From positions 1 through 39,657 of IMG/VR virus record IMGVR_UViG_3300019124_000102: a DNA stretch of 39,657 bases. One strand, 5' to 3'. Numbering within the stretch: position 1 is the first letter of the stretch; every line of letters begins with the position of its first letter. Source of the stretch: a virus. Shown here piece after piece: positions 7,139-27,012 of the stretch. The notes under the pieces were generated by a model. The model saw only the letters and a program-made list of their open reading frames with translations, was not told where the DNA came from and made no database searches. The position numbers were made by a program, and so were the translations under genes.

Positions 7139-7171
7139 TGCCGGCTGAACGTCCAGTAAAGCGCTTTGCTA
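7139..7171 (-). promoter_or_regulatory. Candidate late promoter/activator site before gp46 (PP-like)
   Basis: Minus-strand GCAAAGCGCTTTAC (7169-7156) is a one-mismatch copy of the 14-bp palindrome also found at 19456-19469 and 26997-27010. It lies in the 48-bp gap between gp45 and gp46, the stop of gp45 touching its edge. GAGACT begins 23 bases after the palindrome and could be a weak -10. In Mu the C-dependent promoter PP lies nearby, upstream of gene P. Confidence 0.55.
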
Positions 7172-7711
7172 CATGCCCTGATTGGGCTGGCCCGTCACCG
7201 CCCCACTTTCGGGGTGGGTGTGGCTATTGAACGTAGTGCGCATCTGGGCCATCGTCTTGCCGTTCGTATCGCACCGATCCTTCACCTCGCCGGTGGCCTC
7301 GATGTCGGCCTCCACTCGCAGCTTGGTCAGGTTCACCAGCTTCACCAGCTGGCCGGCACCGTCCACCACGATTCCGTCTCGGGTCAGGTGCACCTTGTGG
7401 CCGAGGTCGTCGTACAGGGCCACCTCGCCAGCCGCCAGGCTCTTCAGGCGGTAGCGTCGGTCGTCCACGTTGATCACCACCACGTGGTCGGTGCTTCCAC
7501 CCAGGGCCAGATAGATGCCCTCAGCGCCCGGCATGGGCACGCTGGTGAAGCCGTAGTGCTGGAAGTGCTCCGCGCGATCGCGCACGACGTCCGCCTGCAG
7601 CTGCACCTGAACGGCCTGCAGCTTGGCAGCATCGTTCACCAGCGCAAGCACGGCGCGGCCGACCAGCAGCCGCACCCGCATCGCCACCCGGTGCAGGGCC
7701 GACGCGCTCAC
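7169..7711 (-). CDS. Baseplate assembly/spike protein (Mu gp45, gpV-like), 180 aa
   Basis: Central spike family: N-terminal R-V-x-L-L-V-GRAVLALV, then an OB-like region (GFTSVPMPGAEGIYLALGG, RYRLKSLAAGEVALYDD), a beta-helix repeat GTRDGIVVDG-like segment and a C-terminal metal-binding NSHTHPESG motif. The GTG at 7711 overlaps the P stop as GTGA, so I use it rather than the frame start at 7744. It forms the membrane-puncturing tip of the contractile tail. Confidence 0.9.
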   Translation of the reverse strand: MSASALHRVAMRVRLLVGRAVLALVNDAAKLQAVQVQLQADVVRDRAEHFQHYGFTSVPMPGAEGIYLALGGSTDHVVVINVDDRRYRLKSLAAGEVALYDDLGHKVHLTRDGIVVDGAGQLVKLVNLTKLRVEADIEATGEVKDRCDTNGKTMAQMRTTFNSHTHPESGAVTGQPNQGM

Positions 7712-8871
7712 CGGCGGATCTCCTTCGGCGGGTCCAGATCCCACGGCGAGGTGAACCCACCGCGCCCCTTCTTGTGGTGCTTGTCCTTTTCGACGCGGTC
7801 ACCCAGGCGGCGATTCAGCCGGCGGCGCTGCGCGCCTTCCACCAGCTCGAACGCCTCGGGCCGCGCGAAGGTGAGCGTCGTCTTGCGGCCGGCCGGGCCC
7901 TTCTCGAAGTGGCAGGCCACGATCAGTACGTCGCGATCGAGCGTCATGCGATCGCTGACCACCCGCACCAGCATGTTCGGCCGCCACAGCGGCCCGGTGA
8001 GTCCGTCCTTGCCCGTGCGCCAGCCGACTACCTCGCAGCTGCCTCGCTTGCCGCGCCCCATGCGGACCTTCACCTCCCACTCGGCGCGGTCCCTCAGGGA
8101 CTTGTTGCTGGTGTGGTGCTCGGCGTGGACGATGAGCGGGCGGTAGCGATTGATTTCCGGGTCCTCCGCCGTCGCCTTGGGATGCGCAGCAGCGGCGCCG
8201 TGCTCGTCGTCATCGCCGGGCGTCTGCGCCTTGACCGTGATCTTCGAGAAGCGGTCCTTCCAGGTGTGCAGCGCCCGGATGCGCTTGATGTTCACGCCCT
8301 CGATGAGCGACACGCCGGAGTGCTCCTCGCTCGCCGTGGTCAGCAGCAGGTCGCCTGCCGGCGTGCTGGTGCACAAAATGGCGCGCAGACGGCAGGCCCG
8401 ATCGATGGCGTCGAACGCCTTCTCGCCGTCCTCCAGAGCGAAGCGCTTGAACACCTCGCCTGTGTTCAGGCCAGGAGCCACCGTGACGCCGATGCCGAAG
8501 GGCACGGCGATGTCCTTCACGATCTGCTCCAGGCGCACGCCGCTCCAGGCGCCGGACTTGTGGATGGCGGAGCAGTCGACCAGGTCGGCGGTCCTGTCCC
8601 GGCCCTGCACGCACAGGCGCGTGTCCTTCTCGGTCAGGTCGGGCTCGTACTCATCGACGTAGCCGGTGATCACCGTCTCTCCGCCGATGCGCACCTCGCA
8701 AGGCAGACCCTCGCGCAGACCGACGGGCAGGTCCGCGCCCGGGGCGTCGTCCGTCAGTTCCAGCCTGAAGCACCCGGCGATGTGTTCGATCGACCGCTCG
8801 ATGTCGATCTCCCTCCACCCGGTGTACACGCGGCCGCCGATCACCAGCTCGACTTCGTTGGCGTCGCTCAC
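7708..8871 (-). CDS. P: Baseplate hub protein P (Mu gp44, gpD-like), 387 aa
   Basis: The hub of the baseplate. It matches Mu P/late control D proteins: VELVIGGRVYTGWREIDIERSIEHIAG at the start, GYVDEYEPD and GRDRTADLVDCSA at about 70-105, a central FALEDGEKAFDAIDRACRLRAIL segment, and a basic C-terminal tail. GTG start at 8871 overlaps the N stop (GTGA), and its own stop overlaps the gp45 start. Tight coupling along N-P-gp45 fits coordinated baseplate assembly. Confidence 0.92.
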   Translation of the reverse strand: MSDANEVELVIGGRVYTGWREIDIERSIEHIAGCFRLELTDDAPGADLPVGLREGLPCEVRIGGETVITGYVDEYEPDLTEKDTRLCVQGRDRTADLVDCSAIHKSGAWSGVRLEQIVKDIAVPFGIGVTVAPGLNTGEVFKRFALEDGEKAFDAIDRACRLRAILCTSTPAGDLLLTTASEEHSGVSLIEGVNIKRIRALHTWKDRFSKITVKAQTPGDDDEHGAAAAHPKATAEDPEINRYRPLIVHAEHHTSNKSLRDRAEWEVKVRMGRGKRGSCEVVGWRTGKDGLTGPLWRPNMLVRVVSDRMTLDRDVLIVACHFEKGPAGRKTTLTFARPEAFELVEGAQRRRLNRRLGDRVEKDKHHKKGRGGFTSPWDLDPPKEIRR

Positions 8872-10091
8872 CTCAGTACCTCCAGAGGCCGTGCCGGCAC
8901 GAACGCGGGGTGGCGCACGCCATTGCGCAGCTCCAGCTCCTCGGCTCGCGCGGCATCCTGGTAGATGCGATGCGCCAGGACTACGCTGGGCAGCACGGTC
9001 ATGGGCGTGAAGGTGGACGCCTGGCGCCGCTGCTCCGCGCGCTCCGCGACGTCGCGGGTCACCGCCGCGCGCAGGCGCACCAGGGCGCTGGCCACCTCGG
9101 CCGGCGGGTCGTTCTCCTCCAACTCCACGTCGACCAGGGCGAGCAGCTCGTCGCGCAGCTGCACCGCCTTGCTCGCGGTGGCCACGGCAGGCTCCTGGGT
9201 GCTGCTGGCCTGCAGTGCGAGCGCCAGGGCGCGGGCATGGTTGGACAGAGCCAGTCGGCGCTGCAGGTCCGCACGGGCCGATTCATTGGCCAGCAGGCGG
9301 GCGCGCGTCGAGCCAGGCCGGGCCGCAGCCACCAGGTCGGCGCTGGGGCGCTTGTTGGACCCGAAGGTGCTCCTGAAGTCCGCGATTGCGCCGAGCGGGC
9401 GCTTGAGCGCAAGCGTCAGGTCCTGGTACAGGCTGCGGAAGCGCTGCACCAGGGTGACCGGCGTGCGCAGCAACGTGCTCACGTCCGACGTGATCAGGCC
9501 GACGGTGCGCACCAGGTCGCCGGCCGACTCGAAGCTCGTGACCTGGCGGACGGTGCTGGCGATCCCTGCAAGGTCTTTTTGAAGGGCCGTCAAAGCCTCC
9601 TCGGCGAGCACGCTGGCACCCTCGACGCTGAACTCCTGCCCGAAGGCCTCGGAGGCTGCGTCCTCCAGCTCGGCGCTGGCGTTGTCCACCTCCGCGACCG
9701 TGCTCTGCGTCACGCGTGGGAAGGTGTTGGCGCCCGCCTCCACGAACGTGATGGAGAAGCGGGCGATGCCGCCCTCACGCGGCGTCTCCCGCTCGGTGGC
9801 ATCGACCACCTGCACCTGCAGCGTGCCGTAGCGCGGATGGATCAGCTCGCCGGGGCCGCTCTGCTCGATCGCCTGGATCAAGGCGTTGCGGCGGTCGAGG
9901 TAGTCGTCGCCCAGGACGTAGGCCTCGACGGAAAAGGTGCGGGCACTGCGGCCAAGATCCTCGACAAATGGCTCGTCCCGCATCGGGAACTGGTGCACGA
10001 CCGCACGGCGGCCGATCTGCAGCTGGGCATCCACCGTGGAGAACGGCACACCCCGGAAGCTCGCGCCGGTCTTGAGTTGGTCGCGCCACAT
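8868..10091 (-). CDS. N: DNA circularisation protein N (Mu gp43), 407 aa
   Basis: The N-terminal DNA_circ_N domain is clear: MWRDQLKTGASFRGVPFSTV, HQFPMRDEPFVEDLG, VEAYVLGDDYLDRRNALIQAIE and GTLQVQVVDA. The remainder is a long helical, alanine-rich region. In Mu, N is needed for tail assembly and has been linked to circularising infecting DNA. Start at the ATG 10091, two bases from the tape-measure stop region; length is slightly below Mu N. Confidence 0.92.
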   Translation of the reverse strand: MWRDQLKTGASFRGVPFSTVDAQLQIGRRAVVHQFPMRDEPFVEDLGRSARTFSVEAYVLGDDYLDRRNALIQAIEQSGPGELIHPRYGTLQVQVVDATERETPREGGIARFSITFVEAGANTFPRVTQSTVAEVDNASAELEDAASEAFGQEFSVEGASVLAEEALTALQKDLAGIASTVRQVTSFESAGDLVRTVGLITSDVSTLLRTPVTLVQRFRSLYQDLTLALKRPLGAIADFRSTFGSNKRPSADLVAAARPGSTRARLLANESARADLQRRLALSNHARALALALQASSTQEPAVATASKAVQLRDELLALVDVELEENDPPAEVASALVRLRAAVTRDVAERAEQRRQASTFTPMTVLPSVVLAHRIYQDAARAEELELRNGVRHPAFVPARPLEVLR

Positions 10092-10093
10092 GG

Positions 10094-12097
10094 TCAGTAG
10101 CCCGCCGAGGTGTTGGTGCGCCCGGTGTCCGTGCGGAACGGAATGCGCGGGCTGCTGGTGCGCGCTTCGGTCTCGACGCTCACGCCAGGTGCCGTCGTCA
10201 CCCGCAGCAGGATCTCGCCCTTCAGGTCCTGCTGCAGCAGCGGCAAGGTGCTGCCGCCGGTGCGCGACAGGCGATCGCCCAGGCCGCGCGCCTCGAACGC
10301 CTTGGCGCCCGCAGCCTCCGAGGCCAGGGCTGCGCTCGCTTCCTTGTTGCCGAAGAAGGAGAGCACCTGGGCCACGCCGCGGCCCACCAGGTTGCCGCCG
10401 GCATTGCCTTCCAGGAGGCCCTTGTAGAGGAGCGTCCCGGCGCCGTATCCGGCGGCACCCGCGACGCCAACACCGCCCGCGCCGAGCGCGAGCCTGCCCG
10501 CAGCGCCAGCGGCTGCCCCAAGCGCGGCGCTTCCGCCGGCAGCAGCGGCCTTGCTCCCGCCAAGAACTGAGAGGGCGGCGGCGCTGCCGGCCAAAGCCAC
10601 CAGCGCCGTCGTGGCTGCCGCGACGGCAGTGGTGTAGCCAGGGTACTGGCGCATCAGCTCGGCCAGCCGATCATTGACGCCCCCGATGGTGGGCATCAAG
10701 CCTTCCAGCGAGGAGTGCAGCGCGATCTCCTGCTCCTGTCGCCGTTGCTCCACCTTGAAGCCGGCCATCGAGGAGATCAGCTCGAAGTTGCGGTCGACGG
10801 CATTCGTGTTGCCGAGAGCGCCTTGGGTGATCGCGCCGACGCGATCGCGGCCCTGCATAAAGCCGTACAGCGCCATGAGCGCCTGGCGATCCTGGAACAC
10901 CTTGCCGATCGTGGTGCCCTGGGCGATGTTCCCGACCGACTCCAGCGCGGCGCGCCGCTCGGAATCGGAACGCGCGTCCTTCAGCTGGCGCTGGATGGCC
11001 TGGTAGTTCTTGTCCTTCTCCAGCTGGCCCTGCAAGAGGTTGCCGACCACGTCCAGGGCGTCGAGCCCGCGCATGCGGCCCTCTGCCAGCTGCTTCGGCA
11101 GGTCGACCCCCTGCTTGCGGAAGTCCCGCACGGTGTCCAGCGAGCCGATCTTGGCCAGCAGGTTCACGACGTTGTTCCCGGCCTCGTCGCGGGTGCCGGC
11201 CGTGACGATCGCCGCCTGGTTCAGCGCGGCGAGTTTCGCGAAGCCCGTCTCGCCAGCCATGCCCACGGCCTTGGCTGCCGCCATCTGCTGGGGCAGCCAC
11301 TTCGCCATGTCCTTGATCTCGAAGCCGCCCTGCTGGCCAGCGAACGTGCCCATGCTGAACAGCGCGCCCATCCGACCAGGCTGAATGCCCATCGTCTGGT
11401 TGGCGGTGATCGCCATCTGGGCGAAGGCGGACGACTCCGTGTTCGTGGCTGTGCCTGCCTTGACGGCTTCACGCAGGATGGTGCGGATCTCGCCCGGCTT
11501 GAAGATGCCGGCGCCGAACAGCGCCTCGGCCGCCGTGACCGCGCTGTCGCGAGTGCCGCCGCCGGTGCGCACGGCATCCACGATCATGGCGTTGATCTCG
11601 CGCAGTCCCGCGCGCCGATCGCCGACGGCCTTGTCGTTGAACGCGGTGTTCGCCAGATGGGCGATCCGCATGTCGTAATCGAGCGTCTGCTGCACGCGCG
11701 GCGCGGCGATCGCGGTGGCGACACCGGCGCCTGCGCCGAGCGCCGCCACGCCCTTGAGGCCGAGCACGGCCTTCTGGCGCGCGGTGAGGCGACCCATCTC
11801 GTTGGTGAGCCTGGTCACCTCCTCGCGCATCTTCTGCGCGGCCCGCCACTGTTCGCGCCAGCTGAGGGTGCCGGTGCGGGCGAGGCGGTTGTACGCCGCC
11901 TCGGTCCTCTGGATCTCGCGCTGCAGCTCGCGCTCGGAACGCACGCCCAGCGTCTCGCGAGCCTTGGCCATCTTCTGGTATTCGGCCAGGCTGCGCGTGC
12001 CCATCCGCTTCAGCGCGTCCTCACCGTCCTTGGCGGCTTTGGCCAGGCCGGAGGCATCGCCGAAGAGGTAGACACCGAAGCGGTAGGTGGCGTTCAC
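10094..12097 (-). CDS. Tail tape measure protein, 667 aa
   Basis: Sets tail length. Residues 1-110 are charged helices (coiled coil); the body contains the TP901-type region with GGGTRDSAVTAAEALFGAG, MAITANQTMG and FEIKDMAKWLPQQMAAAKAVG. A long glycine/alanine-rich hydrophobic stretch at about 490-560 is the usual membrane-active part. The GTG at 12097 overlaps the stop of the frameshifted chaperone product (GTGA), which supports that start and the frameshift. Confidence 0.92.
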   Translation of the reverse strand: MNATYRFGVYLFGDASGLAKAAKDGEDALKRMGTRSLAEYQKMAKARETLGVRSERELQREIQRTEAAYNRLARTGTLSWREQWRAAQKMREEVTRLTNEMGRLTARQKAVLGLKGVAALGAGAGVATAIAAPRVQQTLDYDMRIAHLANTAFNDKAVGDRRAGLREINAMIVDAVRTGGGTRDSAVTAAEALFGAGIFKPGEIRTILREAVKAGTATNTESSAFAQMAITANQTMGIQPGRMGALFSMGTFAGQQGGFEIKDMAKWLPQQMAAAKAVGMAGETGFAKLAALNQAAIVTAGTRDEAGNNVVNLLAKIGSLDTVRDFRKQGVDLPKQLAEGRMRGLDALDVVGNLLQGQLEKDKNYQAIQRQLKDARSDSERRAALESVGNIAQGTTIGKVFQDRQALMALYGFMQGRDRVGAITQGALGNTNAVDRNFELISSMAGFKVEQRRQEQEIALHSSLEGLMPTIGGVNDRLAELMRQYPGYTTAVAAATTALVALAGSAAALSVLGGSKAAAAGGSAALGAAAGAAGRLALGAGGVGVAGAAGYGAGTLLYKGLLEGNAGGNLVGRGVAQVLSFFGNKEASAALASEAAGAKAFEARGLGDRLSRTGGSTLPLLQQDLKGEILLRVTTAPGVSVETEARTSSPRIPFRTDTGRTNTSAGY

Positions 12098-12545
12098 TGC
12101 GGAGGGGTCTTGCTTGCGAGGTCGATGAACAGCTTGGTGTAGGCCTTGAACTCAGCCATCGGCAGCCCGAGGATCTCGGCTCGGCTCCATCCGGTCTGCC
12201 GTGCGATCAAGGCCACCTGCAGCCTCAGCTCGTCTGCCCAGGGCTGGGCTGCGAGTCTTCCCCCAGCTTGTCGGCCTCCTCCATCACGGCCCGCACGGCG
12301 TTCCAGTTCTTCGTCCGCATGGCCTTGAACTGCGCGGACGTGAACGGGCCGGTGAAGTCGCCGGCACGCACCGTGGTGATCGCGGCCAGCGCCGCGTTGA
12401 AGCCGTGGGGATTCATGCCGGGGTGCGCCTCCTTCTCGGCTTCGATCAGATCGCCCAGCAGGGGCGGGCGCATCTCAATGTCGGTGGCGACCTTGCCGCC
12501 GACGGTCCAGGGCTGGGGAAGCGGCTTGACGATGGTGTCGGGCAT
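12094..12545 (-). CDS. Tail assembly chaperone, -1 frameshift product, about 150 aa
   Basis: The zero frame (12545-12225) can pass into the -1 frame at the G5 run (12264-12260), giving 95 shared residues followed by 55 new ones (PWADELRLQVALIARQTGWS, ILGLPMAEFKAYTK, ending SKTPPQ). The -1 frame is open to a TGA at 12094-12096 that overlaps the tape-measure GTG. Long tail chaperones made this way are a conserved feature of lambda-like and Mu-like tails; in Mu the reported shift is -2, here the frames require -1 (or +2). Confidence 0.75.
12225..12545 (-). CDS. Tail assembly chaperone (Mu gp41-like), 106 aa
   Basis: The unshifted short form, placed between tail tube and tape measure as always for this role. 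Helical, with a conserved-looking RPPLLGDLIEAEKE region and WNAVRAVMEEADKL near the end. It probably coats the tape measure during tail assembly together with the longer frameshift form. ATG at 12545. A hairpin (12591-12614) separates it from the tube gene. Confidence 0.85.
   Translation of the reverse strand: MPDTIVKPLPQPWTVGGKVATDIEMRPPLLGDLIEAEKEAHPGMNPHGFNAALAAITTVRAGDFTGPFTSAQFKAMRTKNWNAVRAVMEEADKLGEDSQPSPGQTS
12257..12264 (-). promoter_or_regulatory. Slippery sequence for programmed frameshift
   Basis: On the minus strand CTG GGG GAA G has five consecutive G residues over codons 94-96. The tRNA on GGG can re-pair perfectly after slipping back one base; the next codon does not fully re-pair, so it resembles a single-tRNA slip. 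The -1 frame from here stays open to the tape-measure start. Confidence 0.6.
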
Positions 12546-18301: not shown

Positions 18302-18892
18302 TCAGGCCGCAGCGACTTCGGCCTTGGTGGCAGCGAAGTCCTTCGGGTCGATGCCGGTCGCCTTGCAGACGGCCAGCTCCTCGCTGGACAGCTGCGTCTC
18401 GCCGTCCTTGGCCGGCGGCTTGCCGTTGGTCTGGGTCTTGCCGGCCAGCGCCGGATTGGCGGGCGTCTTGTCGATCAGGGCGCGCAGCTGCGCGATGTCG
18501 GCCTTGCCGACGTTGCGCCACACCTCGGCAACCACCGGGGTGCACTTGCCTTCGGCCGTGGCCTTCTCGATCAGCTCGTTCACCTCGCGATCGGTGTCCT
18601 TGGCCTTGAGCGCGACCACCTCGGCGTTCAGCTGGTTGAACTTCTCCAGGCTGACCCACTTGGTGGGGTCGGGCTCGCCAGTCGCCTGCGCCTTGCTGCG
18701 CAGCGTGGCGATCGCCGTGGTGGCGGTGGCCACGTCGGTGGTCTCGGCCACACCCAGGCTCTTGAGCAGGGTGGTCAGGTCGGACTTGGCGGTCTTCAGG
18801 GCGTTGAGGGCGGCCGTGGCTTGCGCCTCGGTCGTCGCTTCGGTCGCCGGCAGGCCGAGGCCTTCCAGCAGCGCCTTCAAAATCGGATTCAT
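18302..18892 (-). CDS. Probable internal scaffold (Mu Z-like) inside the protease gene, 196 aa
   Basis: In Mu the scaffold Z is made from an internal start in gene I. Here an in-frame ATG at 18892 (NPILKALLEGLGLPATE) has GGAG 9 bases upstream, and the residues after it form the typical helical, alanine/lysine-rich scaffold region. Seen: start and ribosome site. Inferred: use as a separate product. Confidence 0.55.
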   Translation of the reverse strand: MNPILKALLEGLGLPATEATTEAQATAALNALKTAKSDLTTLLKSLGVAETTDVATATTAIATLRSKAQATGEPDPTKWVSLEKFNQLNAEVVALKAKDTDREVNELIEKATAEGKCTPVVAEVWRNVGKADIAQLRALIDKTPANPALAGKTQTNGKPPAKDGETQLSSEELAVCKATGIDPKDFAATKAEVAAA

Positions 18893-19417
18893 CGAGTCGA
18901 TCTCCGGGTCGGTGGGGAAAAGGGCGGACATGCGCGCCAGGCGCTCCTGCGCCACGGGGCTGATGTCCAGAGCGGGGATGTTGGTCAGCGCGGCGTTGAT
19001 CACGCCGGTGACTTCGCCAGTGCGCTTGTCGTAGGAGATGACCGGGCTGAGGTAGGCGTACTCGCCCGCCTCGATCATCTGACGCGCGCGGTCGGTCCAC
19101 TGCACGTCGGTGGCGAACAGGCCTTGGCCGTCGCGCCACTCGAACTTGGTGGCCCACGCCGAGGCAGGCGCAGGCTGGCCGTTTTCCTCGGACAGCATCG
19201 CCTGGTGCTCGTAGTCGAAGTTGAAGCGCACCGTGGAGTGGCGCTCGTTCAGGCGGGCGGCCAACGCGCGCCCCTTGTCGTCAGGCAGCTTCCATGTGAG
19301 ATCCTTCCCAGGACGACCATCGCGGCCTTTGAACTCGCCTGCAGGCAGCAGCTGCACGACGGCAGAGGCCTGCAGCGACAGGGCCGCAGTGAGCAGAGCG
19401 ATGGCGTTGCGTTTCAT
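18302..19417 (-). CDS. I: Head maturation protease/scaffold I (Mu gpI), 371 aa
   Basis: Matures the capsid by cleaving the scaffold. The N-terminal VQLLPAGEFKGRDGRPG and WKLPDDKGRALAARLNERH, then FNFDYEHQAML and APASAWATKFEWRDGQGLFATDVQWTDRARQMIEAGEYAYLSPVISYDKRTGEVTGVINAALTNIPAL are diagnostic of Mu-type I proteases. The C-terminal 196 residues are the scaffold. It is the first gene after the palindrome at 19456-19469, like Mu I after PI. Confidence 0.93.
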   Translation of the reverse strand: MKRNAIALLTAALSLQASAVVQLLPAGEFKGRDGRPGKDLTWKLPDDKGRALAARLNERHSTVRFNFDYEHQAMLSEENGQPAPASAWATKFEWRDGQGLFATDVQWTDRARQMIEAGEYAYLSPVISYDKRTGEVTGVINAALTNIPALDISPVAQERLARMSALFPTDPEIDSMNPILKALLEGLGLPATEATTEAQATAALNALKTAKSDLTTLLKSLGVAETTDVATATTAIATLRSKAQATGEPDPTKWVSLEKFNQLNAEVVALKAKDTDREVNELIEKATAEGKCTPVVAEVWRNVGKADIAQLRALIDKTPANPALAGKTQTNGKPPAKDGETQLSSEELAVCKATGIDPKDFAATKAEVAAA

Positions 19418-19425: not shown

Positions 19426-19473
19426 CATCGTCCCGCGCGCCCGGGGCTCGAACCAGTAAAGCGCTTTACCGGC
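19426..19473 (-). promoter_or_regulatory. Candidate late promoter/activator site before the protease gene (PI-like)
   Basis: Perfect palindrome GTAAAGCGCTTTAC (19469-19456) in the 56-bp gap between F and I; with one mismatch it extends to 20 bp. On the minus strand GACGAT begins 23 bases after it, a weak -10-like hexamer at the same distance as CACTCT after the lysis-gene copy. Mu PI lies at the same place in gene order. Confidence 0.6.
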
Positions 19474-20232
19474 TTACAGGTCCGCAGCGCGTTGCTTTTC
19501 GTCCAGCAGCTGCTGCAGGTGCGCGCGACGTCCGCCGGGCGGATAGTTGAAGGCGGGGTCGACGCCCTCGGGCACTTGCGAGATCTCGCCGCTGCGCGGG
19601 TTGACGTACTCGCGGTACACCTCTGTCGGAGCCTTGCCGACGGTCAGGCCCTCTCGCTGCAGCGTGCGTTCGGTGTGCTGGATGACCGTGCACTTGCAGC
19701 CCCATTCCTTGACTGGCATGTGCCGCTGCCAGAAGGGGTCGTCGGCCGGCAGCACCAGGCCGGCGTAGGCCAGGTGGCTCGGTCGAGGGTGCGCGGCCGA
19801 GGACCGCACGTATTCCAGGAACGGGAACAGCCGCTTGCCCGCCTGGATGCGCTCCCACTGGCCCTCGCTGTAGGCGGTGGCCAGGTTCTTGTCGAAGACC
19901 CGCTTCAGACGGCGCGGGCCGACCTCGACCTGGACGATCTCGCCCGTGTCGGGGTCGGTGACTTCCTTCTTGCCCCACCAGCCCTTGGCCGCGAGCTTCG
20001 GCATCAGCTCCTTCTTGAAGGTGCTGAACGCCACGCCCTCGGCCAGCGCCTGGTCGACCGCCTCCCGGATGTCCTGCAGGACGTCCAGCTGCATGATCTT
20101 GGCGACCGTGAACGCGGCCTGGTGCTCCTGCTGCCAGACGTCCCGATAATCGAAGCCGATCCGGTAGCCCTTCTGGCGGAAAAAGGCGATCGCCTCGGCC
20201 GGCGGGAGGGGTTGGAGCCGGATTTCAGGCAT
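19474..20232 (-). CDS. F: Head morphogenesis protein F (Mu gpF), 252 aa
   Basis: Minor head protein of the Mu F/SPP1 gp7 family. LQPLPPAEAIAFFRQKGY at the start, the helical VWQQEHQAAFTVAKIM region, and RPSHLAYAGLVLPADDPFWQRHMPVKEWGCKCTV (the family's H-x-P-DDPFW-x-GWGC motif) are clear. Start at ATG 20232, which overlaps the end of the 68-aa gene; an alternative TTG at 20301 would add 23 residues without family similarity. Confidence 0.93.
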   Translation of the reverse strand: MPEIRLQPLPPAEAIAFFRQKGYRIGFDYRDVWQQEHQAAFTVAKIMQLDVLQDIREAVDQALAEGVAFSTFKKELMPKLAAKGWWGKKEVTDPDTGEIVQVEVGPRRLKRVFDKNLATAYSEGQWERIQAGKRLFPFLEYVRSSAAHPRPSHLAYAGLVLPADDPFWQRHMPVKEWGCKCTVIQHTERTLQREGLTVGKAPTEVYREYVNPRSGEISQVPEGVDPAFNYPPGGRRAHLQQLLDEKQRAADL

Positions 20233-20431: not shown

Positions 20432-22038
20432 TTTTCAGCAGCCGGCTTCCTGGCGGCGTTCAGCCGGCCCCAGATCCGCGCGGCGAAGCTGCCCCGCGCC
20501 AGCAGGTCCACCAGCTTGTCGGGCGACACCCTGGCCAGCCCGGCCTCCAGCGCGCGCTGGAAGTCCTCGAAGCTGGTCGCCGCCTCCAGCGCCTCCTGGA
20601 CAGGCGCCACCAGCTCGCCCATGCCCTCCTGCCACTCGGCCAGCATGTCTTCGGTCAGGACGTCCAGCTCGTCCGGCTCGCCTGCTGCACCGGCAGGGTC
20701 GGCCTTGAGGTTGGCCTTGCCAGGCGGCGTGCGGCGAGGCGGCGTGTCATCGGCTGGCGCCGGCTCCCGGCCGGCCGGCTTGGCGACCAGGACGTCCTTG
20801 TCCTCGGCCGTGGCCTCCGGGATCTTCAGCTTCGCGTGCGCCCAGCTGCGCGGGATGCGCATGCCCATGTCCACCAGCTTCGGGATGGACTCGGCGTAGA
20901 GCTTGACGTCCTCGGGCTCCTGCGTGTCGAACTGGAACCGCGGGCACCGGGACAGGCTGGCCAGCCCCTTGTTCAGCGCCAGGATGGGGAAGACCAGGTC
21001 GCGCGTGAGCGTGCCGGCAACCTGCCTGGCGTCCGAGTCCCGGATGTCGTGCCGGAGCTTGTTGTGGATCTCTCCCAGCGCCTGCGTCCCGTGCTCGCCT
21101 TCGCCGCTGGTGAGCGTCCCGCCCAAGACCACCTTGGACTGGATGCGCTCCATGTGGGTGATCATCGCGTTGAACGCCTTGTCATCGCCCTTCGCCGCTT
21201 CCTTGAAGTCGATCAGCATCCCCTCGGGAATGATCGCGGCCGCGTCGTGGCCGATGCCCACCACGGCGCGCAGCAGCGTCGCCTTGTCTTCCTTGCTGGC
21301 CGAGGGCGGGTAGGTGCCGAGCCGCAGCGGCAGGCCATAGATCTCCAGGAACTCGGCCAGGTCGCGCACGGCGTAGTTCTTGAAGATGAACGGCCACACC
21401 AGCATGCGGTACAGGCCCGAGCGCGCCACGTAGCCGCTGCGCGAGCGGTGCCGGTGCAAGATCCAGCCGAACGGCCACAGCTGCGCGCCGTCGGCGCTGC
21501 CGTCCCGCAGCCGCAGCTCGTTGCGATCGAGATCCGGGTTGGACACCGGGGTCGTGAACCACGACTGCGGACGGTGCGTGGCGCGCACGGGCACCTTCAG
21601 TCCGCCGTCGGTTCCCCACTCCAGCTCCAGCGCGGAGAACCCGTGGCCGATGCCGTCCGTCATGTCGAACAGCACGTCCTCGAAGTCCTGCATGCCGGCC
21701 AGCACGCCCTTGACGAACGCGGCCAGCTCCTTCTCGGCGGCGGTGGCGTCCTCAGGCGGCACCACGTCCCATTCCAGCCCCTGCAGCGCCAGGCGCCGCG
21801 TCTGCATGACCGAGAAGATGTGGCCGTCCTTCTCTTCGATGTCCTGGTACAGCTCATGCTGCGCGATCAGGTCGCCCTGCTCGGCGGACTGCAGGATCTT
21901 CGCGAGCTTGGCGGGCGTGAGGCCCCGGCTGGGGTGGTTCTCCCATTCGGAGCGCAGCTGCCCGAGGCGGGCGGTCTGCGGCTCGCGCAGCTGCTCGCGC
22001 TGGATGGGGAGGCCCCGGTGATCAAGGATGGTGGTCAT
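20428..22038 (-). CDS. Portal protein (Mu gp29, DUF935), 536 aa
   Basis: DNA entry/exit channel of the head. Typical Mu gp29 features: ILDHRGLPIQREQLREPQTARLGQLRSEWENHPSRGLTPAKLAKILQSAEQGDL, QHELYQDIEEKDGHIFSVMQTRRLALQGLEWDVVPP, then LVWPFIFKNYAVRDLAEFLEIYGLPLRLGTYPP. ATG at 22038 overlaps the stop of the small upstream membrane-protein gene (ATGA). Length fits the family. Confidence 0.95.
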   Translation of the reverse strand: MTTILDHRGLPIQREQLREPQTARLGQLRSEWENHPSRGLTPAKLAKILQSAEQGDLIAQHELYQDIEEKDGHIFSVMQTRRLALQGLEWDVVPPEDATAAEKELAAFVKGVLAGMQDFEDVLFDMTDGIGHGFSALELEWGTDGGLKVPVRATHRPQSWFTTPVSNPDLDRNELRLRDGSADGAQLWPFGWILHRHRSRSGYVARSGLYRMLVWPFIFKNYAVRDLAEFLEIYGLPLRLGTYPPSASKEDKATLLRAVVGIGHDAAAIIPEGMLIDFKEAAKGDDKAFNAMITHMERIQSKVVLGGTLTSGEGEHGTQALGEIHNKLRHDIRDSDARQVAGTLTRDLVFPILALNKGLASLSRCPRFQFDTQEPEDVKLYAESIPKLVDMGMRIPRSWAHAKLKIPEATAEDKDVLVAKPAGREPAPADDTPPRRTPPGKANLKADPAGAAGEPDELDVLTEDMLAEWQEGMGELVAPVQEALEAATSFEDFQRALEAGLARVSPDKLVDLLARGSFAARIWGRLNAARKPAAEK

Positions 22039-22166
22039 GGCTGTAGGTAGTCCAGGAGAAGGCCGGCGCCGGTGCATACCAGGGCGACCCAGCCGCACGC
22101 AGGGGAGACGCCTGCCAGGAGGCCGACGAAGGACAGAACGGCAATGAGGGTGAGCAGCTGCAGCAC
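22035..22166 (-). CDS. Small membrane protein between TerL and portal, 43 aa
   Basis: GTG start at 22166 with GAGGG upstream, 10 bases after the large-terminase stop; the TGA overlaps the portal ATG. The peptide has two hydrophobic helices (LQLLTLIAVLSFVGLLAGV and WVALVCTGAGLLLDYL) with a short turn. Membrane proteins in this position are odd; it may be a small lysis accessory or pinholin-type protein. Function not known. Confidence 0.6.
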   Translation of the reverse strand: MLQLLTLIAVLSFVGLLAGVSPACGWVALVCTGAGLLLDYLQP

Positions 22167-22176
22167 ACGCGTACCC

Positions 22177-23781
22177 TCACCAGGCGCCGGCCTGTCCGAC
22201 TCGCAGGTCGCTGTCGTCGTCGCGGATGGGCCCATCCCAGCGGCTCGCACGCGAGGGCGCTGGCTCGTAGCCGAACTCCGTGGTGCCGTGCAGCTCGCGG
22301 CTGGCGTACCAGGCCAGGGCGCCGGCGATGAACGTGTCGCCGTGCCGCTTCCTCTTCTGGGCGTCTGCCTGGCGAAGCTCGGGAATCTGCGGCACGCCCT
22401 TGATCACGCGCGGCACGCGGTGGTCGGCCAGGATGTCCGCGTCCATCGGTAGCTCGATGAGCCGGTCCTCGAACGCGGCCTTGTAGGGCGGCAGGTGCTC
22501 CAGGTACCAGGGCTGGGTGGCCTGGACCATCAGGATTCGCGTCTGGCCGTACCGCTGGGCGGTCTGCTCCGCCATCTGCATGCCCAGGCCTCGCGCGTCC
22601 AGCGCGGCGCCGCTGAAACGCGGCAGGCCGTCAATCACGTACCACAGGATCTGCAGCTGCTGCTGGAAGGGCATGCCGCGCAACTCGATCACGAAGGGCA
22701 CACGGCGGCGCAGGTCGCGGAACTGGATGAGGGGCAGGAAGGCGGACAGGTCGCCCGTGCGGGCGAAGTCGCCGCCGACGTAGCTGGTGACGTTCTGCAG
22801 GTCGCGCAGCTGCAGCAGCAGCGGTTTCAGGTGCTCCTCGCACCAGTCCAGGATCTCGAGCTTCCGGGTGCGCTCGGGCGCGAAGGTGAACTCCGGCTTG
22901 CGCTGGTCGCGCAGCACCGGCAGGCCCTGGCGCATGCACCGCTCGATCAGCTCGCGGGTGAGGAAGGCGCCAGTGCCGTGCTTGGGCACGCAGTCCAGCT
23001 CCTCCTCTGCATCGTCGCCGTAGAAGGCGCGGATCTCGGCGGCCCACTTGGCTTGCGCCTCTGCCGACCACTGCTGGCCGGTGCGCAGGCAGATGCGGCG
23101 GTACAGGCCTTCGTAGAGGGCGTCCTCGAACGTGATCCGATGAACGCTGTACGGATAGCGCCCCGCGCGAACGTCTTTCAACAGCAGGTTGAACGGGTTG
23201 TCGTCGCCGTCGTGCGTGCTGATGATGCGAAGATCGCCGCCCCAGATCAGCAAGGCCATCGCGGCCTTCAGGATCTCGGCCTGGTTCTCGTGGAAGGCGG
23301 CCTCGTCCAGGATCACGCGCCCCTGCTTGCCCCGCAGGTTGCGCGGCTTGGAGCTGAGGGCCGTGATCCGGTTGCCGCTGGCGAACTTGATCGAGAAGGC
23401 GAAGACCGACTTCTTCTCCTCGCCGTCGATGAAGACGTCCTCGGAGATCTCGATCGCCTCGGCCACCGACTGGAAGTGCTCGGCCCACTGCGCGCAATCG
23501 AGGATGAACTCGATGGCCATGTCCTTGACGTAGCCGATGTACCAGACGTCCATGCCGCTGGTCGCGGCGGCGCACAGCACGGCGTCGCAGGCCTCCGCCC
23601 AGGACAGGCCGATTCGCCGGCTCTTCTCGCACGCCTTGACCTTGCTGGTGTCGGCAAGCCAGCGCTGCTGGTAGGGCAGCAGCACGTTCCCGTCGTCGTC
23701 GGCAATCGGCTTGCGCTGCTCGAACTGGTAGTCGGCCTCCTCGCCGAGACGGCGCATTTCCGGCGTGATGATCTCGGTCAT
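22177..23781 (-). CDS. Terminase large subunit (Mu gp28-like), 534 aa
   Basis: Packaging ATPase and nuclease. The variant Walker A region CEKSRRIGLSWAEA at about 51-64 and Walker B RVILDEAAF at 155-163 match Mu gp28; the nuclease half has GGDFARTGDLSAF (D338) and GAALDARGLGMQMAEQ (D395). The ATG at 23781 has GGAAGG upstream and overlaps the previous gene by ATGA; the frame extends further upstream without similarity. Works with gp27-like small terminase encoded two genes before. Confidence 0.95.
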   Translation of the reverse strand: MTEIITPEMRRLGEEADYQFEQRKPIADDDGNVLLPYQQRWLADTSKVKACEKSRRIGLSWAEACDAVLCAAATSGMDVWYIGYVKDMAIEFILDCAQWAEHFQSVAEAIEISEDVFIDGEEKKSVFAFSIKFASGNRITALSSKPRNLRGKQGRVILDEAAFHENQAEILKAAMALLIWGGDLRIISTHDGDDNPFNLLLKDVRAGRYPYSVHRITFEDALYEGLYRRICLRTGQQWSAEAQAKWAAEIRAFYGDDAEEELDCVPKHGTGAFLTRELIERCMRQGLPVLRDQRKPEFTFAPERTRKLEILDWCEEHLKPLLLQLRDLQNVTSYVGGDFARTGDLSAFLPLIQFRDLRRRVPFVIELRGMPFQQQLQILWYVIDGLPRFSGAALDARGLGMQMAEQTAQRYGQTRILMVQATQPWYLEHLPPYKAAFEDRLIELPMDADILADHRVPRVIKGVPQIPELRQADAQKRKRHGDTFIAGALAWYASRELHGTTEFGYEPAPSRASRWDGPIRDDDSDLRVGQAGAW

Positions 23782-23990
23782 CTGCACGCCTTCCATGCAG
23801 CGACCAACGCCTGCAGGTCGAACTCGATTGCCTCGAAAAGCAGTTCGGAGCGGTCCCAGTCTTGCAGCAGTAGGGCACACCACACGGCGCCGACCAGGTT
23901 CAGCACATAGGCCACCGGCAGGATCACGCCGAAGCTGAATGCAGCCTTCGATGCGATTCGGGCGCGTCGCATGAGAATGTGCGTGCTCAT
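23778..23990 (-). CDS. Small membrane protein between terminase subunits, 70 aa
   Basis: Overlaps both neighbours by ATGA, so it is clearly part of the late operon. A basic N-terminus is followed by a hydrophobic helix of about 25 residues (FGVILPVAYVLNLVGAVWCA) and an acidic helix. No family recognised. As no holin was found next to the endolysin, this and the 43-aa protein at 22035-22166 are possible holins, but position alone does not prove it. Confidence 0.65.
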   Translation of the reverse strand: MSTHILMRRARIASKAAFSFGVILPVAYVLNLVGAVWCALLLQDWDRSELLFEAIEFDLQALVAAWKACR

Positions 23991-24568
23991 GCAGCCGCCT
24001 TCGGCTTCGCATCGGCGACGCCCAGGATCTTCTTCTTGATCAGGTCGACGGTCTCGTCGGACAGGCCTGCCTTCTTGGCGGTCTGCGCCACCTCGCTGGC
24101 CACCTTCTCAGCGCGCGCGGCAATCAGCTTGCGCACGGCCAGCTCGCGGTCCACGATCAGCTTGTCGGCGCCGGCGATGTCCTTCATCGCCTTGCCCAGG
24201 AACATCAGGTCCTCGGGGCTGGCCTGCTCGATGTCGCCGATGCTCTTGAAGGCCACCAGGCGCAGCATCTCCAGCACCATGCGGCCGACATCGCCCTCGG
24301 GCTCCTTCCCGAGCTTGTCGACCCACACCGCCGCCATCTGCGTGGCCTGGCGGTAGTCCTCCATCCGTTCCTTCGCGTTCTTCACGTAGCGGCCGACGGC
24401 CGAGCGCGAGGCCTCGGCGCCATGCTGCTCGATCAGCTGCACGATGCCGTCGATCGTGAGCCGCCCCTCGCGGATCGCGGTGTCCACCGCTTCCTTGATC
24501 TTGGGGTCCAGCTGGGTGATCGAGCTGGGGCGCGAGGGCTTTCGCTTGCGGAGCGTCTTCTCGGCCAT
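23987..24568 (-). CDS. Terminase small subunit (Mu gp27, DUF3486), 193 aa
   Basis: DNA-recognition part of the packaging motor. DUF3486 features: RKPSSITQLDPKIKEAVDTAIREGRLTIDGIVQLIEQHG with a helix-turn-helix and ASRSAVGRYVKNAKERM, then a helical body and a lysine-rich C-terminus. ATG at 24568. Its stop overlaps the next gene's start. Confidence 0.92.
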   Translation of the reverse strand: MAEKTLRKRKPSRPSSITQLDPKIKEAVDTAIREGRLTIDGIVQLIEQHGAEASRSAVGRYVKNAKERMEDYRQATQMAAVWVDKLGKEPEGDVGRMVLEMLRLVAFKSIGDIEQASPEDLMFLGKAMKDIAGADKLIVDRELAVRKLIAARAEKVASEVAQTAKKAGLSDETVDLIKKKILGVADAKPKAAA

Positions 24569-24577
24569 GCGAGCCTC

Positions 24578-24874
24578 TCAGGGCATGGGGCGCTTGACGC
24601 CCGGCACGTGCGCGCGTCCGGCCGCCACGTCGGCGCCCCGGCTGGTCAGGGTGGCGATCGCGACGTCGCCGCGCGTCTGCGCCGCGGCCAGCCCTTGCTC
24701 GGCCAGCCAGGCCAGGTCGGTCTTGACCTGGTCGATGCTGGCGTTGTGGCCGTAGATGGCGGCGATCGCGTCGCGCAGGAGGAAGGCGTTGGCGCTGTAG
24801 CCGGGCGTCTCCGCCAGCACCAGCAACAGCGACAGGCGGCGGTCTTCGGTGAGGGTCTGCTGGAAACTGCTCAT
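24578..24874 (-). CDS. Mu gp26-like winged-helix protein, 98 aa
   Basis: Small winged-helix protein upstream of the terminase genes as in Mu: LTEDRRLSLLLVLAETPGYSANAFLLRDAIAAIYGHNASIDQVKTDLAWLAEQGLA, then a beta hairpin with VAIATLTSRGADVAAG. ArsR-like fold suggested by the pattern. ATG overlaps the gp25 stop. Role in the family unknown. Confidence 0.85.
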   Translation of the reverse strand: MSSFQQTLTEDRRLSLLLVLAETPGYSANAFLLRDAIAAIYGHNASIDQVKTDLAWLAEQGLAAAQTRGDVAIATLTSRGADVAAGRAHVPGVKRPMP

Positions 24875-25245
24875 ACGCGGCGCAGGAGGTGTTCGTGGAT
24901 CAGGTTGGTCTGGCGTTCGACGCGGCGCATGCCTTCGCTCAGTGCCTCGACCTGGGCCTTGGTGGTAGCCACGTCGGAGCGGATCTGGCCGATCTCCTCG
25001 TCGGTCGGCATGTGCTTCATCGCGGTTTCAAGCCGCGTGAGACGCACGTTCTGCTGCTCGTTGGCCTTGGCGCTGGCGTCGATGAACGACGCCAGGCGCT
25101 CCGCGACTTCCTTGACGGCCTTCTCGTTGCCGCCGTCGGCCTTGCGCAGGTACAGCCACGCCGCGATGCCGGCGTTGAAGAGCCACTGCAGGATGAACAA
25201 CGAGATGTAGACGAGGGGCCAGTTGACGGCGGGTTCGGTGCTCAC
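24871..25245 (-). CDS. Mu gp25-like protein (DUF2730), 124 aa
   Basis: An N-terminal transmembrane helix (LVYISLFILQWLFNAGIAAW) is followed by a long coiled coil with EQQNVRLTRLETAMKHMPTDEEIGQIRSDVATTKAQVEAL, the typical DUF2730 arrangement. GTG start at 25245 overlaps the stop of the spanin gene (GTGA). Membrane-anchored; function unknown, possibly late gene/lysis related by position. Confidence 0.87.
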   Translation of the reverse strand: MSTEPAVNWPLVYISLFILQWLFNAGIAAWLYLRKADGGNEKAVKEVAERLASFIDASAKANEQQNVRLTRLETAMKHMPTDEEIGQIRSDVATTKAQVEALSEGMRRVERQTNLIHEHLLRRV

Positions 25246-25877
25246 GGCGCTCCCTTGATGTTCTGCACGGGCACCTCTGCGCCCTTCTTGTTGATGAAGT
25301 CGATCAGGCGCTGATGCCGGAGGAAGTTCTCGGCGCAGATGCGGGCGTTGAGGGCGTGGTTGTCCCAGGCGTCCTCGACGGTGACCCCGGCGTCAGCAGC
25401 ACAGGCGGCCTCGGAGGTGTCAGCAAGTCCGCAGGCACCCGAAGGGACGTCCCGGCCGGCGAGGGCCGAGTTCCACATCCAGACAGCCCCATGAGTGAGA
25501 GAAGGATCGTCGCGAGCAGGAACCGGCACGAGGAGTACTTCGGGCGTGCCGGGCTGCGCGGCCGGCGGGGGAGCTGGAGGGCGCCCCACCGGGCAGCGCG
25601 AGACGACGAGTGCGTGGCGGCGCTTGTAGTCATTGAAGGCCTTCGTGAGTTGGTCGTTGGTGATCTGCCTGGCCAGCAGCTCGGCCTGCAGCGCGCCGCT
25701 GGCCTTCTCGCCACGGCGGATCTCGGCCTCGCGGGCTTCGGCCTCGGCCTGCAGGCGCTTGCCTTCCTTGGCCTGCCAGGCGTTCTCGGTGTTCTTCACG
25801 CCCACGCGGTGGCCCATCGCCGCAGCCCAGATAGCGACGACCAGGACGACGAGCGCCTGCGCAGCCAGCCGCCTCAT
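25242..25877 (-). CDS. Inner-membrane spanin (Rz-like), 211 aa
   Basis: An N-terminal transmembrane helix (LAAQALVVLVVAIWAAAMGH) is followed by a coiled coil (AWQAKEGKRLQAEAEAREAEIRRG and onwards) and a periplasmic tail ending in helix LNARICAENFLRHQRLIDF. With the embedded Rz1-like frame this is an i-spanin, which fuses inner and outer membranes at the end of lysis. The ATG overlaps the lysozyme stop as TAATG. Confidence 0.8.
   Translation of the reverse strand: MRRLAAQALVVLVVAIWAAAMGHRVGVKNTENAWQAKEGKRLQAEAEAREAEIRRGEKASGALQAELLARQITNDQLTKAFNDYKRRHALVVSRCPVGRPPAPPPAAQPGTPEVLLVPVPARDDPSLTHGAVWMWNSALAGRDVPSGACGLADTSEAACAADAGVTVEDAWDNHALNARICAENFLRHQRLIDFINKKGAEVPVQNIKGAP
25304..25633 (-). 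CDS. Outer-membrane spanin lipoprotein (Rz1-like) embedded in the Rz gene, 109 aa
   Basis: An alternative frame inside the Rz-like gene contains a lipoprotein signal FLLATILLSLMGLSGC with lipobox LSGC, followed by a proline-rich mature part (TPPRPPVLLTPGSPSRTPG), the classical Rz1 composition. The nearest in-frame ATG before the signal is at 25633, giving a long basic leader; a non-ATG start closer to the signal is possible, so the start is uncertain. Confidence 0.65.
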   Translation of the reverse strand: MTTSAATHSSSRAARWGALQLPRRPRSPARPKYSSCRFLLATILLSLMGLSGCGTRPSPAGTSLRVPADLLTPPRPPVLLTPGSPSRTPGTTTPSTPASAPRTSSGISA

Positions 25878-26503
25878 TACGCGGTCCCCTTGCACTTGGC
25901 GTGCAGGCGCAGGCGGTCCTTCCATAGGCCGCTGCAGACCTTGTTCGGCTTGGAGCAGTCGATCGAAGTCGGGCCGAGCGGCCCTTGCACCGTGACGTAC
26001 TTCCAGTCCAGGATGTGGTCGCACGCGCGCGCGTAGTCGCCTGCGCGGGCGGCCCTGACGATGCTGGAGCGGCAGAAAGCGCCTTCGCCGATGTTGTGGG
26101 CCAGCTCGATGTACGCGTCGTACTCGTACTGCGTGAGCTTCAGGTCCGGCGCGCAGCGCTTGATGGCGCTCTCCTTTGCCTGCACCTCGCGCAGCGCGCG
26201 ATTCACGGCCGAGACCGGATCGGTCTTGTCGCCCAACTTGACGCCTTCGGTGGAGCCGAAGCCGATCGTCGCCACCGCCGCGCCCTTGGCCGGGTCGGGA
26301 TAGGCCACCGAGCTGTAGCCCTCGCGTGTGAGGATGCCGACCAGGCCGAGGCCGGAGATCGCCAGCGCAGCGATCGTCACGCGCATGCCGATCGTCGCCT
26401 CACCGAGCTGGCGGCGCAGGCGCAGCACCTGACCCGGCGCGCAGGCGGCTATCACCTCGCTGACGCGCCGGGCCAGGGCCGACCAAACCGAACGGGGGCT
26501 CAC
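25877..26503 (-). CDS. Endolysin, GH24 lysozyme with SAR-type N-terminus, 208 aa
   Basis: Cleaves peptidoglycan. The catalytic region EGYSSVAYPD then TIGFGST gives the E-D-T pattern of T4-type lysozymes (E61, D70, T79 counted from the GTG). Just before it a weakly hydrophobic, glycine/alanine-rich segment (RVTIAALAISGLGLVGILT, residues 41-59) looks like a signal-anchor-release domain. The GTG at 26503 overlaps the previous stop (GTGA); an ATG at 26386 would begin right at the SAR segment and may be used as well. Confidence 0.9.
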   Translation of the reverse strand: MSPRSVWSALARRVSEVIAACAPGQVLRLRRQLGEATIGMRVTIAALAISGLGLVGILTREGYSSVAYPDPAKGAAVATIGFGSTEGVKLGDKTDPVSAVNRALREVQAKESAIKRCAPDLKLTQYEYDAYIELAHNIGEGAFCRSSIVRAARAGDYARACDHILDWKYVTVQGPLGPTSIDCSKPNKVCSGLWKDRLRLHAKCKGTA

Positions 26504-26961
26504 AACAGACCCTCCATGTAGCGCATGGGGGCGGCGAACTCGAAGCAGCCGGTCTGCACCTGGCGGCGCGGAGAGCGGCCGACCGGCGGGATGTCCAGCT
26601 GGACCCAATCGCCCGCATTCACCAGGCGATCGAAGGCCACGCCGTGCGCTACCAGGTGCGCACAGATCTCGCGTGGCGAACCGAACTCGGGGGCGATGAA
26701 CTCGGCGGAGCGGCCTTCGCCAGCGGCGTCATCCACGGAGCCGACGGGAAGGTGGTGCGGCCGGACCCTGAAGGCCCGCAGCACGCAGATGGTGGCGCCG
26801 TCCAGGTGGGCGCGGACCACCTCCAGCGTCTGCGCCAGGCGGCGCAGGTTCTCGATCTGCTGGCCGAGCGGCTGATTGCGCAGCCCCGCCTGCCCCATGA
26901 GGGGGCTGACGGTCAGCTGCGAAAGGAAGAAATGCCTGGTGAGGCGCTCATCGGTCGGCAT
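26500..26961 (-). CDS. Peptidase M15-like protein with altered metal ligands, 153 aa
   Basis: The fold pattern of peptidase M15 (D-Ala-D-Ala carboxypeptidase-like) is visible: FFLSQLTVSP, GLRNQPLGQQIENLRRLAQTLEVVRAHL, then the S-x-x-x-x-G-x-A-D-F region and a W-V-H-L region. The usual zinc ligands are replaced: the His position is A80, the Asp is E87 and the second His is Q121 (WVQLD). It is the first gene after the palindrome at 26997-27010 and probably a structural or regulatory relative of the enzyme. No Shine-Dalgarno is visible; a hairpin lies directly upstream. Confidence 0.72.
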   Translation of the reverse strand: MPTDERLTRHFFLSQLTVSPLMGQAGLRNQPLGQQIENLRRLAQTLEVVRAHLDGATICVLRAFRVRPHHLPVGSVDDAAGEGRSAEFIAPEFGSPREICAHLVAHGVAFDRLVNAGDWVQLDIPPVGRSPRRQVQTGCFEFAAPMRYMEGLL

Positions 26962-26978
26962 CGCGGCAGAGTGCCGCG
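26962..26978 (-). promoter_or_regulatory. Hairpin touching the M15-like start codon
   Basis: CGCGGCA and TGCCGCG arms, 3-base loop, ending one base before the ATG at 26961. It occupies the place where a ribosome site should be. A structured leader controlling the first late gene, or part of the promoter region, are both possible. Confidence 0.4.
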
Positions 26979-27012
26979 CGCGCGCGAGCCCGACGAGTAA
27001 AGCGCTTTACCG
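26965..27012 (-). promoter_or_regulatory. Candidate late promoter/activator site before the lysis genes (Plys-like)
   Basis: Perfect palindrome GTAAAGCGCTTTAC (27010-26997) in the 71-bp gap before the lysis block; CACTCT begins 23 bases after it on the minus strand and is the best -10-like hexamer. Copies also precede the protease gene and gp46. Mu promoter Plys has the same position in gene order. Confidence 0.6.

Follow-up and report, generated by a model that had tools for sequence, protein, structure and literature searches.

Candidate Mor-dependent late promoters with predicted transcription starts at or near late start codons in a Mu-like phage

Introduction

The closest described systems are promoters of phage Mu. 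At Mu Pm, the dyad bound by Mor is reported at -51 to -36, centred on -43.5, where it replaces a -35 element and is combined with a -10 (PMC4287176, PMC4390567). The late promoters Plys, PI, PP and Pmom of Mu are activator-dependent as well, in their case on C. Here we analyse a 39,657-nucleotide stretch of viral DNA (IMG/VR record IMGVR_UViG_3300019124_000102, positions 1 to 39,657; the window), in which a short palindrome stands ahead of the lysis block, the protease gene gpI and the baseplate gene gp46. It is probable, given the layout of these sites and their counterparts in other phages, that the palindromes are operators of a single Mor-family activator and that transcripts start at or near the ATGs of the late genes.

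The window differs from Mu in several respects. With no further Mor/C gene found, its late operons would be under the direct control of Mor. Its site reads TAAA-N4-TTTA, and its start codons lie at or near the predicted +1, whereas the Mu record has a ribosome-binding site annotated at or just past the end of Plys, PI and Pmom, ahead of the ATG. Upstream of Mu com/mom a 14-bp dyad with a 6-bp spacer can be read, TTAT-N6-ATAA, which we take to be the C site; the window has no mom-type site. An earlier interpretation of the window, made from its letters alone (the sequence-only reading), had equated the three sites with Plys, PI and PP. This is borne out for Plys and PI, which precede the same genes, but not for PP: the Mu annotation puts that promoter within gene N, some 335 bp ahead of P (gp44), while the third window site precedes gp46. 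By analogy, then, the window promoters would work like Mor/C promoters, but with a single Mor and no leader.

The B3-type Pseudomonas phages B3 and JBD25 resemble the window: a single Mor gene is annotated in each, three late positions carry one type of palindrome, and gpI has NAnnnT 6-7 nt ahead of an ATG. They differ in that the palindrome is TTTTCG-N6-CGAAAA or a variant of it and that the lysis and tape-measure genes have leaders. There is also precedent for leaderless messenger RNA (mRNA). Deinococcus genes whose open reading frame (ORF) begins about 6-7 bp past a -10 motif yield leaderless mRNA; that motif reads TANNNT, precedes host genes and involves no phage activator (PMC12340547), whereas the window hexamers read SANNNT and probably need an activator. 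The lambda cI mRNA is a naturally leaderless phage mRNA (PMC4965119), but cI is a repressor gene and not a co-regulated late regulon.

Results

A motif search of the whole window, one of the checks proposed with the sequence-only reading, found two exact copies of GTAAAGCGCTTTAC, at 19456-19469 and 26997-27010, and a third with one mismatch at 7156-7169, as that reading had reported. These are the only three matches at up to one mismatch, against none in 100 dinucleotide shuffles; allowing three mismatches adds one, TTAAAGCCCTTTTC at 37068 in the early region, where 0.49 would be expected by chance at that setting. All three palindromes lie in the late region and in minus-strand reading direction, each directly before a gene, as had been noted, with the next ATG at offset 36 (26997 to 26961, lysis block), 39 (19456 to 19417, gpI) and 36 (7156 to 7120, gp46). 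The weak NAnnnT hexamers described earlier are also present: CACTCT, GACGAT and GAGACT, respectively, with 23, 23 and 22 bases between palindrome and hexamer. Pfam searches identified gp46 (PF07409), gpI (PF10123), gp45 (PF06890) and Mor (PF08765, 83.3 bits against a cut-off of 24.9), and gave no match for the first lysis gene. The features are as follows.

26997..27010, minus strand: candidate activator palindrome GTAAAGCGCTTTAC, Plys-like, ahead of the lysis block; same site type in 7 of 7 phages compared
26968..26973, minus strand: putative lysis promoter -10 hexamer CACTCT, ATG 6 nt on (sequence)
26963..26977, minus strand: inverted repeat GCGGCA-CTC-TGCCGC spanning the lysis -10; both arms changed together in relative G8 (GCGGGA..TCCCGC)
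26975..26986, minus strand: alternating CG run of 12 nt in the lysis spacer, directly 5' of the -10 (sequence)
26500..26961, minus strand: first lysis-operon gene; ATG at 26961 is the predicted +1 (sequence)
19456..19469, minus strand: candidate activator palindrome GTAAAGCGCTTTAC, PI-like, ahead of gpI (motif search, relatives)
19427..19432, minus strand: putative gpI promoter -10 hexamer GACGAT, ATG 9 nt on (sequence)
18302..19417, minus strand: gpI protease (Mu-like_Pro), predicted leader about 3 nt (Pfam)
7156..7169, minus strand: candidate activator palindrome GCAAAGCGCTTTAC (minus-strand sense) ahead of gp46 (motif search, relatives)
7128..7133, minus strand: putative gp46 promoter -10 hexamer GAGACT, ATG 7 nt on (sequence)
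6650..7120, minus strand: gp46 baseplate gene; ATG at 7120 at or adjoining the predicted +1 (Pfam)
38883..39272, plus strand: Mor-family activator, the sole one found among window ORFs (Pfam, ORF search)

Relatives were found by terminase scans of IMG/VR and of Burkholderiales/Polaromonas genomes, and the six with a full late region (G1, G4, G5, G7, G8 and G9; the window is W) were used for the comparison of gaps that had also been proposed. A further relative (L023), a short contig from a genome without a Mor or gp46 match, showed no site and was left out of the count. The same site type precedes lysis, gpI and gp46 in 21 of 21 cases across the seven phages. In G1, whose Mor is 71% identical, the offsets of 36, 39 and 36 are those of the window, and the gp46 proteins of the six relatives are 55-71% identical to the window's while the flanks differ. 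The two identical copies in the window might have suggested a chance occurrence or a functionless duplicated segment, but the empty shuffles and, decisively, conservation in place across six relatives with differing flanks refute this, and we give it practically no credence.

The lysis site is kept ahead of different enzymes, an M15-like protein in W, G1, G5 and G7 and an N-acetylmuramoyl-alanine amidase in G4, G8 and G9, so that the lysis promoter appears to have been retained while the enzyme was swapped. The non-homologous amidase (PF01510) lies behind this promoter at oriented 12913 (G4), 15016 (G8) and 12445 (G9). As a separate matter, the window protein (26500-26961) is 49% identical to the M15 peptidase of G1 (PF08291), but its counterparts of the SAHLDGRAAD and WVHL stretches read VDDAAG-EGRSAE and WVQL; the G7 copy likewise lacks both stretches, and the metal ligands of these two lysis proteins may have been lost.

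What is conserved is narrower than the 14-bp core. The central four bases (GCGC) vary among relatives, as does the ACT-S-G flank, which the three window copies do have in common, as the sequence-only reading had stated; the conserved unit is TAAA-N4-TTTA, with TAAA columns at 33-34/34, TTTA columns at 34/34 and a mixed core (34 sites, the G9 gpI site omitted). Some clade sites have both outer bases altered, and the core of the G9 gpI site is 3 bp. Strict TAAA-N4-TTTA occurs at 27 places in the seven phages, and ATG counts are highest at offsets 36 and 37, with 7 at each, against 3 at the next-ranking offset and an expectation of 0.84. Strict palindromes are thus not limited to late starts, and near-matches lie inside coding sequence or directly ahead of TerS, sheath or gp41 in some relatives. 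The earlier proposal of a Mor regulon is well supported by comparison with relatives, short of its PP equivalence and its choice of the 14-bp unit.

Beyond the clade, TAAA-N4-TTTA palindromes stand at four places in Pseudomonas phage Bise, ahead of a lysis-side gene, gpI, the gene at 19271 and the baseplate wedge gene, each with the ATG, annotated by others, at offset 36. Among 13 loci of this type the ATG stands at 36 or 37 in 20 of 20 palindrome places; 14 places remain once five duplicate loci are dropped, some still very similar. Together with the 21 clade sites these make a set of 35, of which 34 are distinct in sequence. The hexamer S-A-N-N-N-T is present in all 35, its first base being C or G and never the consensus T. 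The A of A-N3-T falls at offset 25 in 28 sites, at 26 in five, at 24 in one and at 27 in one, and other offsets for this pattern collect 0-3 of 35 each. The best matches to a -35 (TTGACA at 16-18 bp) reach just 2-4 of 6 bases across sites. A weak -10 at fixed spacing without a good -35 is the layout of an activator-dependent promoter. If +1 is the A of the ATG, as we infer for lysis and gp46, the dyad centre falls at -42.5, a dyad-to--10 geometry that would equal the one published for Mu Pm. The first -10 base differs outside these clades, reading AATACT in E. coli phage PhiKM and Klebsiella phage KP12.

Alternatively, a host regulator of the LacI type, or the S24/HTH repressor of the phage itself, might use the palindrome as its operator and keep late genes off in the lysogen. 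We take TAAAGCGCTTTA to resemble LacI-family operators, and a cI-like repressor is encoded in the window at 27614-28552. However, the cI/early control region contains no copy even when three mismatches are allowed, the fixed upstream spacing to a weak -10 suits activation, and the sites occur in phages or prophages from Polaromonas/Burkholderiales, Pseudomonas and Halomonas/Vreelandella, with one per enterobacterial phage; we consider a repressor operator improbable.

An alternating CG run was considered as a further part of the promoter rule and dropped, as Bise-type sites have none. Such runs occur in the window-clade lysis spacers (6-12 nt), at the G5 gp46 site, and in B3 and G2, a more distant Mu-like phage. 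Runs of 8 or more fill 0.2-0.6% of 22-nt windows in the clade, and those of B3 (L090) near 11590 and 26848 are similar to window 26975-26986.

The most informative feature, one absent from the sequence-only reading, is the fixed distance from the -10 to the ATG. In 28 sites (14 clade lysis and gp46 sites and the 14 Bise-type ones) this distance is 6 nt in 22 and 7 nt in 6, which places A and T at -11 and -7 relative to the ATG in 22/28 and at -12 and -8 in 6/28. A -10 ending 6-7 nt before the ATG puts +1 on or next to its A, so lysis, gp46 and Bise-type transcripts are predicted to begin at or beside the ATG, that is, to be leaderless. Window lysis (6) and gp46 (7) fit the leaderless spacing of 6-7 nt and gpI (9) does not. 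Shine-Dalgarno pairing at these starts is weaker as a group, which mostly agrees with leaderless transcripts. The four Bise starts pair at -2.3 to 0.4 kcal; of its 51 other coding sequences, 49 were compared, with a median of -7.7 kcal and 42/49 reaching -4 kcal. For the clade, the median over the 21 starts is -2.9 kcal, compared with -5.6 for 73 others (p = 4e-4), the latter including window longest-ORF starts that are possibly wrong.

Transcription from Mor-dependent promoters might instead begin at a point farther upstream, as it would if TTTANT within the palindrome were the -10, giving short leaders without a Shine-Dalgarno sequence. TTTAAT and TTTACT within the palindrome do resemble TATAAT, and an inverted repeat that lies ahead of many ATGs would then become an mRNA hairpin. 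This is nevertheless unlikely, in that both palindrome halves are equally conserved, as expected of a dimer site, and a separate A and T of NAnnnT keep a near-fixed distance even at gp46 sites with little or no stem.

The layout was also sought in a wider collection. The pattern TAAAGNNCTTTA-N24-SANNNT-N6-ATG was run against IMG/VR and returned at least 120 stretches; a control with the hexamer shifted 6 nt upstream and the ATG unmoved gave 53 matches in all. Among the matches listed, 64/122 open an ORF of at least 100 amino acids from the ATG versus 1/53 in the control (Fisher 3e-12), and after removal of duplicates 43/86 among the matches listed versus 1/39 (4e-8). The sole longer control match (L236) carries its own A-11/T-7. 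The other 58 of the 122 matches listed, which open ORFs below 100 amino acids and come mostly from AT-rich contigs, look coincidental; the same may apply to L132, L195, L220 and L222, four of the 64 with longer ORFs, whose contigs are also AT-rich. A homologue of a window gene is found in 42/62 long-ORF stretches among the matches listed, as against 3/58 short-ORF and 3/53 control stretches, and a Mor-family ORF in 9/62, 1/58 and 0/53 of the fetched stretches, respectively, the first two figures again among the matches listed. Pfam searches with ten chosen proteins, the Bise wedge protein and nine others taken from the scan, gave matches for nine, to the Mu-like protease, GPW_gp25 wedge, M15 peptidase, glycosyl hydrolase 108 and Mu gp36 families. 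The exact extended pattern GTAAAGCGCTTTACTSG occurs in two IMG/VR contigs, G2 and G3. G2 has a Mor 39% identical over 72 residues and an exact palindrome with the ATG at 37. G3 was dropped, having no homologue of window genes and proteins that by eye are those of an ordinary tailed phage.

Three Halomonas/Vreelandella contigs have the site before gpI with the ATG at 37. In E. coli phage PhiKM, Klebsiella KP12 and the E. coli D6 element there is one site each, ahead of the wedge gene at its annotated start, and Komp_PAO1_1 has one such site with one mismatch. The layout does not fit the lysis and gpI-position genes of PhiKM or the D6 holin.

As to which protein binds, Mor is named because of the promoter layout, its being the sole such activator found and the analogy with Mu. 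The earlier claim of a single C/Mor-type gene agrees with our search of the window ORFs with the Mor protein, which returned only 38883-39272. Matches of this protein to solved Mor/C structures are weak (1rr7, E=0.0037; 9vw8, 0.0089; 9l0x, 0.0097). The window's late promoters are very probably Mor-dependent. The B3 genome has three copies of TTTTCG-N6-CGAAAA, ahead of the lysis, gpI and tape-measure genes, where JBD25 shows a variant of it; a single late-gap palindrome type thus goes with a single Mor-like gene in each of these phages. The repeated late-gap motifs of JBD25 and phiSHP3 differ from the window's, GTAAA-N4-TTTAC not being found in either at up to one mismatch, and that of phiSHP3, CGTGCAAATGACCTG, is not an obvious palindrome. 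We noted CGTGCAAATGACCTG in phiSHP3 (L019) in the gaps before 11317 (lysis) and 19300 (gpI), with GAACAT 6 nt ahead of the gpI ATG; perhaps it is a third activator-site type. That motif type simply follows Mor type was considered and rejected, since the motifs do not group by overall Mor similarity. The C-terminal recognition region of Mor, compared by eye only, may decide the site type.

Discussion

From the sites, their conservation and their distances we infer Mor binding, start position, operon extent and leaderless translation along the following lines: (i) TAAA-N4-TTTA, with its centre near -42.5, would be the binding site of a Mor dimer; (ii) bound Mor would bring the host's sigma-70 RNA polymerase to a weak S-A-N-N-N-T -10 that lacks a good -35; (iii) three consecutive late operons would be switched on in this way, from lysis to head, from gpI to gp45 and from gp46 to the end; and (iv) the lysis and gp46 mRNAs would start at or next to the ATG and be translated leaderless, with a short leader on gpI. 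The new part would be the leaderless arrangement of the late promoters. A literature search joining leaderless with Mu-like gave as its sole match a paper on a CRISPR-transposon regulator, and we do not claim absence from print.

A number of observations weigh against this model. The seven window-clade gpI sites have their ATG at offset 39-42, which predicts leaders of about 3-6 nt, and in four of them the -10 is GAGGAT, which could double as a Shine-Dalgarno sequence. Seven of the 21 clade starts reach -4 kcal, five of them gpI (51/73 among the other starts), as do 17 of 67 distinct leaderless-type upstream 18-mers, scan matches included. Longer leaders are found at the lysis and tape-measure genes of B3 and JBD25, at SHP3 lys and at the PhiKM lys and gpI-position genes, and some carry Shine-Dalgarno-like sequence. 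In 42 other, mostly more distant loci the ATG is at 36/37 in only 7 of 62 oriented palindromes, which does not stand out (offsets 20 and 21 give 5 each), and three of the seven are the Halomonas/Vreelandella gpI cases. The second G2 site has no ATG at 36. As for the binder, the Mor proteins of SHP3 (5e-18) and JBD25 (3e-17) are more similar to the window's than those of Bise (1.4e-7) and G2 (4.3e-6), yet among these four only Bise and G2 have the TAAA site. G5 (L077-L079), finally, has a second lysis-type site at oriented 15196 with the same spacer and no ATG at +1; it was considered as an internal control with leader and Shine-Dalgarno sequence and rejected, its next ATG opening just 12 codons.

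Many lysis promoters also contain a GC-rich inverted repeat whose loop is roughly the -10 hexamer. Over 79 promoters, a set that includes nine hand-picked ones and related lysis sites that are not independent, the mean stem is 3.03 versus 2.18 in arm-swapped controls, and 0 of 2000 swaps scored as high. The arms change together between phages (GCGGCA/TGCCGC, GCGGGA/TCCCGC, GTCGCC/GGCGAC). The repeat is not universal: by class, the swaps reaching the observed value number 0/2000 for lysis (15 sites), 1195/2000 for gpI (10) and 51/2000 for gp46 (8), that is, it is absent at gpI and weak at gp46. One could argue from the stem excess that the conserved block is mainly an RNA hairpin by the start codon, controlling translation of any mRNA passing through. 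The palindrome and hexamer are kept, though, at the very gpI and gp46 sites where the stem fails or is weak, and we regard an RNA element as the main explanation as very improbable.

Within the Mor-promoter model, our guess is that the inverted repeat keeps read-through RNA untranslated. Fusion of promoter and start codon might act as a gate, such that the lysis, protease and baseplate-wedge genes are translated only from activator-started mRNA; we put this forward tentatively and with some doubt. In RNA that reads through from the prophage or early region, the AUG would be internal and without a Shine-Dalgarno sequence, and at lysis genes it would often be closed by a hairpin with the -10 hexamer as its loop. 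On this view, Mu-like phages from several bacterial families would retain the geometry even as the specificity of their activators drifts. A scan for consensus terminators found none between 26900 and 28395 in the window, the sole match being at 28396-28417.

With this layout as a simple sequence rule, late operons and likely start codons can be located in Mu-like prophages. By this rule the annotated start of B3 gpI looks wrong: in the B3 record (L090, AF232233) the protease is annotated from a CTG at 19857, and the layout predicts an ATG at 19887. If the model is correct, phages of common laboratory hosts would have a co-regulated leaderless regulon, and the part played by leaderless translation in phage timing would be open to direct testing.

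Three minor observations concern the enterobacterial sequences. The E. coli D6 element (L282, 9296-25055) lies between lysC and yjbD and has Mor, lysis and tail genes and no annotated head genes, which makes it tailocin-like. An 801-bp stretch from the wedge gene of L107 has matches in 194 of 5426 E. coli genomes. The record filed as Klebsiella phage KP12 (L280, OM835952; Vequintavirinae) is a 34.9-kb sequence with a Mu-like gene set.

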